Shown piece after piece: positions 42,110 through 63,190 of a stretch of DNA of 63,190 nucleotides (position 1 is its first letter; the number at the start of each line of letters is the position of its first letter). Under the pieces are notes generated by a model. The model was not told where the DNA came from. It searched no databases and saw nothing but the letters and a program-made list of their open reading frames with translations. The stretch covers positions 235 through 63,424 of the forward strand of contig NZ_JAJIRP010000004.1 of the NCBI RefSeq assembly GCF_025717555.1, in the 5' to 3' direction. Source of the stretch: Paucibacter sp. B2R-40 (GTDB taxonomy: Bacteria; Pseudomonadota; Gammaproteobacteria; Burkholderiales; Burkholderiaceae_C). The position numbers and the translations under genes are program-made.

Positions 42110-43039
42110 ATGAGCCTCAGCATCACCCACCGACATATCGAAGTCTTCCGCGCCGTCATGACGGCTGGCAGCGTGACCGAGGCCGCAGCTTTGCTACACA
42201 GCTCGCAACCCACCGTGAGTCGCGAACTGGCCCGGCTGGAATACCTGCTCGGCTATGCCTTGTTCGAGCGCGTTCGTGGCCGCCTCAAAGCCAATGCCCG
42301 CGCCCTGGCTTTGTTCGACGAGGTGCAGCGCAGCTACCAGAGCTTGGATCACATTGCCGACCGGGCTCGCGCCTTGGGTCGGGCAGAACAGGCAGTGCGC
42401 TTGTCGGTGCTGTGTCTGCCGGCGCTCAGCCATGCCTTGTTGCCGGGCACCTGTGCCGATTTCATAGCCCGGCACAGTGGCGTGCAGCTAACTGTCACGC
42501 CGCAGGAGTCGCCGCTACTCGAAGAATGGATGAGCGCCCAGCGCTTTGACCTGGGCTTGACCGAGCAGGTTCACCAGGCGCCGGCCGGCACCCAGTTGCT
42601 GCCGCTACTGGCGATGGACGAGGTCTGCATCTTGCCGGCAGGCCATGCGTTGCTGGCCCAGTCGATGCTGACGCCGGCTGATTTTGAGGGTTTTGACTTC
42701 GTCAGCCTGTCCGCCGACGACCCCTACCGGGCTCAGCTCGACGCGATCTTTGCGCAGCAAGGTGTGAGCCGGCGTCTACGCATGGAAACGCATAGCGCAG
42801 TGGCCGTGTGTGCAATGGTCAGTGCCGGTTTGGGCCTGGCCATCGTCAACCCCTTGACCGCCTTGGCGCTGGCCGGGCCGCAGTTGCATCTGAGGCCGTT
42901 CAGCGTGTCGGTGCCGTTCAAGGTGGCGGCCTTACTGCCGCTGCACAGGCCTGCTCAGCCGTTGGTGGGCGAGTTGATTGAATGCCTAAAGCGAGAAACT
43001 GAAAATCTGCAAATTCGCTTTACTGGCGCGGCAAACTAG
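42110..43039 (+). CDS. lysR: LysR, transcriptional activator of lysA
   Basis: This 309-residue regulator aligns closely with the eponymous E. coli LysR. The N-terminal RHIEVFRAVMTAGSVTEAAA and SSQPTVSRELARLE form the winged helix. PQESPLLEEWMSAQRFDLGLTE and METHSAVAVCAMVSAGLG are shared with E. coli LysR. It is expected to activate lysA when diaminopimelate accumulates. The divergent arrangement is the classical one. The ATG at 42110 gives the family start. The stop codon lies inside the first stem of the downstream hairpin array. Confidence 0.93.
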   Translation: MSLSITHRHIEVFRAVMTAGSVTEAAALLHSSQPTVSRELARLEYLLGYALFERVRGRLKANARALALFDEVQRSYQSLDHIADRARALGRAEQAVRLSVLCLPALSHALLPGTCADFIARHSGVQLTVTPQESPLLEEWMSAQRFDLGLTEQVHQAPAGTQLLPLLAMDEVCILPAGHALLAQSMLTPADFEGFDFVSLSADDPYRAQLDAIFAQQGVSRRLRMETHSAVAVCAMVSAGLGLAIVNPLTALALAGPQLHLRPFSVSVPFKVAALLPLHRPAQPLVGELIECLKRETENLQIRFTGAAN

Positions 43040-43108
43040 GTGCGCGCTACGCGCCTAAGCCGAATGGTTGTGACAAGGGACGTATCGCAATGCGATAACG
43101 GCGTTGCC
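43037..43108. repeat. Two hairpins at the lysR 3' end
   Basis: The lysR stop is embedded in an imperfect stem (43037-43057: TAGG and CGCG pairing with CGCG and CCTA, with a two-base bulge). A second hairpin, TATCGC-AAT-GCGATA, spans 43083-43097. Together with the following four-way structure they form a dense structured array between convergent genes. Confidence 0.65.
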
Positions 43109-43192
43109 CAATCACAGCCTTGGCGCTTCAGCGCCAAGCCGCGCAAAGCGCGGGCTTATGCGCGCTCTATGCGCGCATAAGCGCTGTGATTG
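43109..43192. other. Perfect four-way-junction (cloverleaf) DNA/RNA element
   Basis: An outer stem CAATCACAGC (43109-43118) with GCTGTGATTG (43183-43192) encloses three hairpins that abut without a single unpaired base. They are 43119-43138 (8-bp stem, TTCA loop), 43139-43153 (6-bp stem, AAA loop) and 43154-43182 (12-bp stem, TCTAT loop). All pairs are Watson-Crick. The right half is also the last 12 codons and stop of folE2. It may act as a bidirectional terminator or mRNA 3' barrier. It has no tRNA features. Confidence 0.75.
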
Positions 43193-43950
43193 TGTATGGA
43201 TTCAAAATTCTCAACATCCACCGCATAACGCCCGATCCGCGCGTCAGCATTCAGTCGCAAGGCCACATCCCGCACCAGGTCCTCGACGAACTTGGGGTTC
43301 TCATAAGCGTGCTCGGTGACCCATTTCTCGTCGGCGCGCTTGAGCAGCGGCCAGAGTTCACTAGAAGCACTTTCTTCGGCGAATCTGACCAGTTCCAGCC
43401 AGCTGATGGCCACACCACTCAGCTCCGCCCGGATCGTCACCAAGGAACGCTGGTTGTGCGCGCCGTAGTCCGAGATCTCTTTCGAGCAAGGACACAAGCT
43501 CTTCACCGGCACCGCCACTTCGGCCCACACCGAGGTCAGTCCGGCGCGCGTCTCGGAGATCAAGGCGCCCTGGTAGTCCAACATGCTCTCAATGCCGGAC
43601 ACCGGCGCACGCTTGCGCAAGAAGAAGGAGAAACGTACCTCGATGCGGCCGTCCTGCGCCTCCAGCTTGCTCAGCATCTGGCCATGCAGTTCGCGCAAGG
43701 ACTCCGCTGTCAGCGGCGCGTTCAAAGCGTCCAGCCAGGCGACGAAGCGGGACATATGGGTGCCCTTCTTCTCGGCTGGCAGCGCCACATCCAAGGTCCA
43801 CAGGCCAACCGTCGTTTGCGCCTGCTTGCCGACCTGAATCTGCAGCGGATAGCGCACATCCTTGACGCCCACGCGCTGGATCAGCAGATGCCGCTCATCG
43901 CGCTCGCTTTGGGTGTCGGGGATGTGCAGGGCGCTGGTGACTTGATTCAT
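43156..43950 (-). CDS. folE2: GTP cyclohydrolase FolE2 (type IB)
   Basis: This 264-residue enzyme converts GTP to dihydroneopterin triphosphate, the first step of folate synthesis. It is the metal-flexible type IB form (formerly DUF198). The active-site block [19 protein letters not shown] has C153, C155 and H165. [21 protein letters not shown] is also typical. No folE1 is seen in the window. It is probably the last gene of the xseB–ispA–dxs–folE2 run, 95 bases after dxs. Its 3' end is folded into the cloverleaf element. Confidence 0.94.
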
Positions 43951-62883: not shown

Positions 62884-63190
62884 GCTCGCACTGGCGAAGC
62901 CGGGAGGCTTAGCCAGGCTAGCGAAGGACTGGTCGCGCGACCAGCGACCAGGCTGAGGCTGCACAGACAAACCCGGAAGGGTTTGGCAGGCAGCCGAAGG
63001 CTTGGGCGCGATACAAGCGCACAAGCTGAGCTCGCACTGGCGAAGCCGGGAGGCTTAGCCAGGCTAGCGAAGGACTGGTCGCGCGACCAGCGACCAGGCT
63101 GAGGCTGCGCAGACAAACCCGGAAGAGTTTGGCAGGCTGCCGAAGGCTTGGGCGCGATACAAGCGGCTGAGCTGAGGCTGCGCTGGCTAA
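62881..63190. repeat. 146-bp tandem repeat made of short hairpins
   Basis: Unit 1 is 62881-63026 and unit 2 is 63027-63172. They differ at about seven of 146 positions, four of them in the last seven bases. A degenerate third start runs from 63173 to the window edge. Each unit is a chain of stems: AAGCC-GGGA-GGCTT; CTGGTCGC with GCGACCAG around seven bases; CAAACCC-GGAA-GGGTTTG; AGCC-GAA-GGCT; and (unit 1) GCGC-GATACAA-GCGC. I see no credible gene in it. The array may continue beyond the window. Confidence 0.88.

Follow-up and report, generated by a model that had tools for sequence, protein, structure and literature searches.

The four-way junction at the end of folE2 in Paucibacter sp. B2R-40 is, judging from sequence comparison with relatives, the front part of an inserted unit of 122 bp, and this insert is probably best read as a non-autonomous, site-specific mobile unit with a substitute gene tail. 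The junction lies in the window (the whole stretch of 63,190 nucleotides that was analysed), where folE2 faces a convergent LysR-family gene (Table 1). A first-pass annotation had described there a perfect 10-bp outer stem around abutting hairpins of 8, 6 and 12 bp, and exactly this is found at 43109–43192, with zero unpaired junction bases and Watson–Crick pairs only. It had also judged such order unlikely by chance, rightly so: the predicted fold reaches −62.3 kcal/mol versus −32.76 ± 2.93 in 200 dinucleotide shuffles (z −10.1; 0/200 as low). The 201-nt surroundings give z-scores of −5.87 (+ strand) and −5.54 (− strand). Among the 144 perfect hairpins of the window (arm of at least 6, loop of 3–8), the junction is the sole chain of three abutting members, one other chain having two. 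Elsewhere, close to the end of the window, an identical 8-bp perfect hairpin sequence occurs twice, at 62929–62951 and 63075–63097, 146 bp apart. Along folE2 the order is arm O, H1, H2, H3, arm O′ and then a trailing hairpin, and the junction encodes the last folE2 codons, as the annotation had it, with the stop codon (43156–43158, − strand) inside. An Rfam scan of the window gives no match above the gathering score. The bidirectional intrinsic terminator once suggested for this site finds no backing, since terminator-like patterns (a G+C-rich stem followed by a T run) number zero in 42900–43300, compared with 0.6 in shuffles.

Table 1. Features at the convergent ends of folE2 and the LysR-family gene (window coordinates)
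Feature	Position	Strand	Description
folE2 (GTP cyclohydrolase FolE2)	43156..43950	-	NCBIfam PRK13674, 265.6 bits, cut-off 215; ORF
Outer stem arm O	43183..43192	-	10 bp, pairs with 43109-43118; folE2 codons H-N-H-S
Hairpin H1	43154..43182	-	12 bp, loop 5; codons A-Y-A-R-I-E-R-A + stop
Hairpin H2	43139..43153	-	6 bp, loop 3
Hairpin H3	43119..43138	-	8 bp, loop 4
Outer stem returning arm O′	43109..43118	-	10 bp, pairs with arm O
Putative inserted unit, 122 bp	43071..43192	-	A|CAA at both ends; comparison with empty and filled relatives
Trailing hairpin of unit, diverged T domain	43072..43108	-	Comparison with relatives
Displaced old folE2 end	43036..43070	-	Reads (H)N-H-S-A-stop; overlaps lysR end
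Convergent LysR-family gene	42110..43039	+	NCBIfam PRK11013, 422.6 bits, cut-off 288

The inserted unit holds the last 11 folE2 codons with their stop, H2 and H3, arm O′ and the trailing hairpin. A left arm starting at A|NAA, the returning arm and, behind the unit, a repeat of the target are all present in 43036–43192. The two hairpins that the annotation had placed at 43037–43097 exist as separate things, namely the unit's trailing hairpin and the displaced folE2 end; that the unit brings a replacement folE2 tail, the old one being displaced behind it, had been missed. The two tails differ in their H-S codons (CAC AGC in the unit, CAT TCG in the displaced end). A blastn search of the window's own genome finds no further full copy of the unit.

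FolE2 was searched in 59 genomes, and gene ends were read at 15 loci (L009–L023) of the same genus, which by its named relatives lies near Roseateles/Paucibacter, leaving aside a partial locus (L027 in G002) and two genomes with no FolE2 match (G001 and G014). A unit of the same plan, and with it the homologous structure in close relatives, occurs at 7 of the 15 loci (G000, G003, G004, G005, G006, G007 and G015) and is absent at 8 (G008, G009, G010, G011, G012, G013, G016 and G017), three of which (G013, G016 and G017) still have part of an H1-like palindrome. Among the seven carriers, the outer stem is closed in six predicted folds and decayed in G007 (L013). Measured folE2 units span 100 to 122 bp; the sequences of H2 and H3 vary among them, the hairpins being formed nearly always. 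Most carriers have a second folE2 end behind the unit. In L015, this displaced tail continues into the downstream sequence of the empty locus L014; thus, the second end would be the old one pushed downstream. A separate search finds a conserved folE2 tail pattern in 79 of 80 loci, and the site is therefore a dependable one. Carriers are scattered on a folE2 tree of 27 rows, where the 12 included need seven changes, at least six forced by well-supported branches; since 50 of 500 shuffles of the carrier labels are as low as observed, mild clustering is possible. The tree omits L021 and L022 (missed by the tail pattern) and L026 (masked sequence), and scores L143, which has the H1 palindrome only, as a non-carrier.

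The trailing part of the unit probably belongs to a dispersed family. A covariance model (R1), built on four folE2 units, has matches in 10/18 genus genomes (E ≤ 0.01); in eight, the match is at folE2, and weaker matches at other genes display this plan too. The hairpin that trails the matched units, CATATCGCGCAGCGATGTG, is found, allowing one mismatch, in 59 of 299 family genomes; the reversed CATATCGCGCAGCGATGTG pattern has no match among the matches listed. A second model (R2), made from 24 copies of the fuller trailing domain, T, detects T in 16/18 genus genomes at E ≤ 0.001. At E ≤ 0.01, copies number 78 in G238, 19 in G457 (another family), 8 in G074, 6 in G010 and 3 in the window's genome, with none in an Achromobacter genome; 14 of 121 relatives of that Achromobacter have T matches at E ≤ 1e-4, one of them (G916) seemingly being G457 again. 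Across the order the exact T core is rare, occurring in 5 of 399 genomes, two of these outside the family. R2 gives no match at the trailing hairpin of the window. In the nearest relative, G003, the counterpart of the window's unit (L010) keeps the T core (18.6 bits, E 0.0085); other folE2 units score 26.8 (L136), 25.9 (L022), 23.8 (L012), 23.5 (L137) and 17.0 bits (L013), and L011 and L015 match weakly (E about 0.6). Because its own trailing hairpin has diverged, the copy in the window is placed in the T family through orthology with L010 and the other folE2 units.

Units are found at metK, argF, acs, ftsW, proB and aceE (NCBIfam assignments), and further T sites lie beside tRNA-Ser(UGA) and between genes. 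The window's genome also has an ftsW unit and a tandem pair at acs. The ftsW-end unit (L145; G000:C4 near 146336) parts ftsW from murG, and the displaced ftsW tail overlaps the next start (ATGA). At five loci (L157, L165, L187, L188 and L255), the unit adjoins an intact tRNA-Ser(UGA) and has on its far side a duplicated 5′ half of this tRNA, cut at the anticodon loop. At the folE2 end of L259 (G889; T matches 922–1573), five T domains stand in tandem at 144–145-bp spacing, each with another folE2 tail, and the entry codon position is E|NFES, unlike that of the window's unit. Other tandem spacings range from about 60 to 157 bp. Tandem T at 75–76-bp spacing occurs at G238 C2:8087–8312 and G889 C1:697680–697910. 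An intergenic T copy flanked by lepA and an htrA-type protease gene recurs, without a gene tail, in about 20 of the loci examined (including L149, L159, L174, L175, L177, L181, L189, L191, L195, L284 and L302) and bears a short palindrome of AAACGGCG/CAACGGCG type. An Rfam scan of 10 loci with units returns one tRNA and nothing else above the gathering score.

Unit statistics cover 140 distinct T units, 137 of them with enough flank, related sites and tandem units being each counted singly. Perfect pairs in the left palindrome number at least 8 in 51 units and at least 10 in 34, as against 29 and 3 of 405 shifted controls; the median is 7 pairs versus 5 in controls, and palindromes reach up to 18 perfect pairs (L168). 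A target duplication of at least 12 nt lies behind T in 48/137 units versus 4/133 control stretches, leaving 89/137 units without it. Among the 51 units with a left arm of at least 8 bp, the left end falls at A|NAA in 44 (counted by eye), and the right end mostly obeys this rule too. For 74/137 units, a frame of at least 100 codons has its end within the unit, a figure that has no control. Many T copies appear solo or decayed.

Compensatory changes, which the annotation had asked for besides homologous structures in relatives, are present both in T and in the acs and folE2 arms. In 114 aligned T matches (109 distinct), 96.2% of cells are paired; 192 cells are changed on both sides versus 39.6 in shuffles, and the covariation score is 0.333 versus 0.112 in shuffles and far above slid controls. 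These figures lean towards structure because the alignment is fitted to the model and relatedness is uncorrected. On the gene-sense strand of T, 74 G·T pairs stand against 26 A·C mismatches, in few columns, an excess that points to this strand as the one that folds. With hand-picked arms and one register shift allowed, arms pair better with their own partners than with shuffled ones at acs (11 units, 93.9% versus 82.8%), in the folE2 outer stem (15 units, 84.0% versus 70.6%) and in folE2 H1 (11 units, 90.9% versus 80.9%), with 0/20000 shuffles as good in each case. Mixed registers and weak rows bring acs pairing to 79.0% (71.2% when swapped), and a version of the test with three misplaced rows gives 84.8% versus 75.8% (3/20000 shuffles). 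On these alignments, the outer arms track each other across species.

How such a unit would act can be proposed from its typical gene-end form, about 90–160 bp long, made of a gene tail (running from the point of insertion through the stop codon and a little beyond), arm O′, which is antisense to the start of the carried tail, and the shared domain T, mostly ending in YCA. Its site of entry would be A|NAA among the final codons of a particular gene, where the carried tail would complete the reading frame and the old tail would be displaced behind T. Insertion would be a recombination or strand-transfer reaction on a folded single strand, with an enzyme acting in trans, an idea to which the folding of the strand, the conserved asymmetric hairpin and the fixed junction point. 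The unit may instead move through an RNA intermediate or arise by local fold-back copying. As a side effect, the unit may act as a terminator or protect mRNA.

Whether the tail is carried or copied is where the competing readings part. T alone might insert at A|NAA, with the tail and antisense arm made on site by fold-back or template switching on the target strand, so that the unit would be generated from its own target. This is rather unlikely, yet the palindrome begins where the unit is inserted and agrees with the local gene, over up to 18 perfect pairs (in L168), and the tails of L010, L015 and part of L042 resemble the displaced tail. By eye, six carriers were compared, L009 (the window's locus), L010, L013, L015, L042 and L137, and the displaced tail is of the other codon type in two of them and not in the other four. 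The window and L042 are the two loci where the unit tail and the displaced tail differ in this way, and tandem units in L011 are of both types, which local copying does not predict; nor does it explain H2 and H3. L010 and L015 have tail and displaced tail of one type, and in L042 a GCCCGC variant common to both speaks for some local copying or conversion. A reading with no mobile element at folE2, in which slippage made tandem duplications and the structure was kept as an RNA 3′-end stabiliser or terminator, is very improbable. Tandem copies in variable number suit it, and the covariation and the G·T excess on the gene-sense strand fit a structured RNA, but T also sits at unrelated genes, beside tRNA-Ser and between genes, tandem units can be heterologous, carriers are patchy and the window has no terminator pattern.

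The first-pass annotation had also offered a REP/BIME-like mobile unit. The mobile part of this is supported, and the strict, RAYT-borne sense is not: movement in trans by a Y1 (RAYT/IS200-type) transposase, to which the asymmetric conserved hairpin, the dispersed copies and the Y1_Tnp genes in 4/6 genomes searched (G000, G004, G009 and G074) would lend themselves, is marginally less probable still than slippage, as neither the T-rich G238 (98% complete, 78 T copies) nor G311 has a Y1_Tnp match. This transposase was thus rejected as a general agent. So was a reverse transcriptase, RVT_1 occurring in 4/10 carrier genomes and not in the window's own (G000), G012, G238, G074, G457 or G889. Neither enzyme looks obligatory for the units. 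Integron attC sites were dropped, the units being unlike attC motifs as generally known. The 22-base T core has no exact match in viral contigs, and one proB unit (121 bases) has no blastn match in phages or plasmids at E 0.01. By eye, the 28 largest clusters of neighbouring ORFs around units resemble target genes, their neighbours or other-frame translations, and no recombinase is recognised among them. In all, neither a mobilising enzyme (by the Y1_Tnp, RVT_1 and neighbour-ORF searches) nor an autonomous copy was found.

The mobile unit with a substitute tail is preferred because filled and empty folE2 loci exist, with a displaced tail running into the empty locus's downstream sequence; because folE2 carriers are patchy, T reaches 16/18 genus genomes and one genome holds 78 copies; because of the target duplications (48/137 versus 4/133) and the A|NAA rule (44/51); because the tail codon type differs in the window and L042 and both types are in tandem in L011; and because T and the arms covary. 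Against it stand the searches that turned up neither enzyme nor autonomous copy, the frames that end inside only 74/137 units, the 89/137 without duplication and the solo or decayed copies, together with the single codon type of L010 and L015 and the GCCCGC of L042, as local copying would give, the window's trailing hairpin outside the T model and the 50/500 label shuffles that need as few changes as the real carriers.

REP/BIME elements with RAYT transposases are short, imperfectly palindromic and dispersed, have a conserved hairpin and carry no gene tail. The units here share their short, dispersed, palindromic form and differ from them by the gene tail and by the absence of a Y1_Tnp match in G238. 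Rickettsia palindromic elements, palindromes of about 100–150 bp, lie in frame inside genes and add coding sequence; the present units, in contrast, substitute a new 3′ end, leaving the old one displaced. The insertion logic would be comparable to that of islands in tRNA genes, where, in the part of the Islander account considered (PMC4383910), the insert makes the interrupted target gene whole again and a displaced fragment stays behind. Both share the restored gene and the fragment behind, but those islands are large and have tyrosine integrases, whereas the units are about 100 bp, gene-less and at protein-gene ends. Small mobile sequences overlapping ORFs are the subject of two papers on enterobacteria (PMC2759123, PMC2229807). 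The nearest published counterpart found is BRE, the Beta-proteobacterial repeat element (Hot et al. 2011, PMC3110155), and the T family may be the same repeat, going by a comparison of descriptions. According to passages of that paper, BRE is 75–91 bp at full length, occurs in Betaproteobacteria including Comamonadaceae and Bordetella, is often in tandem in variable number, is mostly intergenic with contacts to ORF ends, and is suspected of mobility; one copy is covered by transcripts of about 80 nucleotides and more. Small size and the tandem habit agree in part, T spacings of 75–76 bp (the most BRE-like form) and 91 bp falling at the BRE length within a range of about 60 to 157 bp, and the taxa overlap by order and family only. 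The gene tail, displaced tail, antisense arm and junction structure of T units set them apart from BRE as those passages present it, and the passages describe no tail replacement; nor was any account of it found in the parts of the literature on small repeats and gene-end elements that were covered.

It is tempting to go further and to propose, tentatively and with more doubt than confidence, a class of gene-less elements that would home to conserved gene ends, arm O′ pairing with the target strand. Such elements would swap in their own, sometimes foreign, tail, hiding the damage, and the arm would co-evolve with the target codons; a host or trans-acting enzyme would move them. With the A|NAA rule and the antisense arm, both the mobilising enzyme and its choice of target would be open to direct tests. 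If the T family is BRE, then an unexplained repeat gains a way of life. If the proposed mobile unit is real, core genes (folE2, metK, ftsW, argF, acs and proB) have their C-terminal codons rewritten by a widespread Burkholderiales repeat, and the ends of genes there would therefore not be purely vertical in descent.
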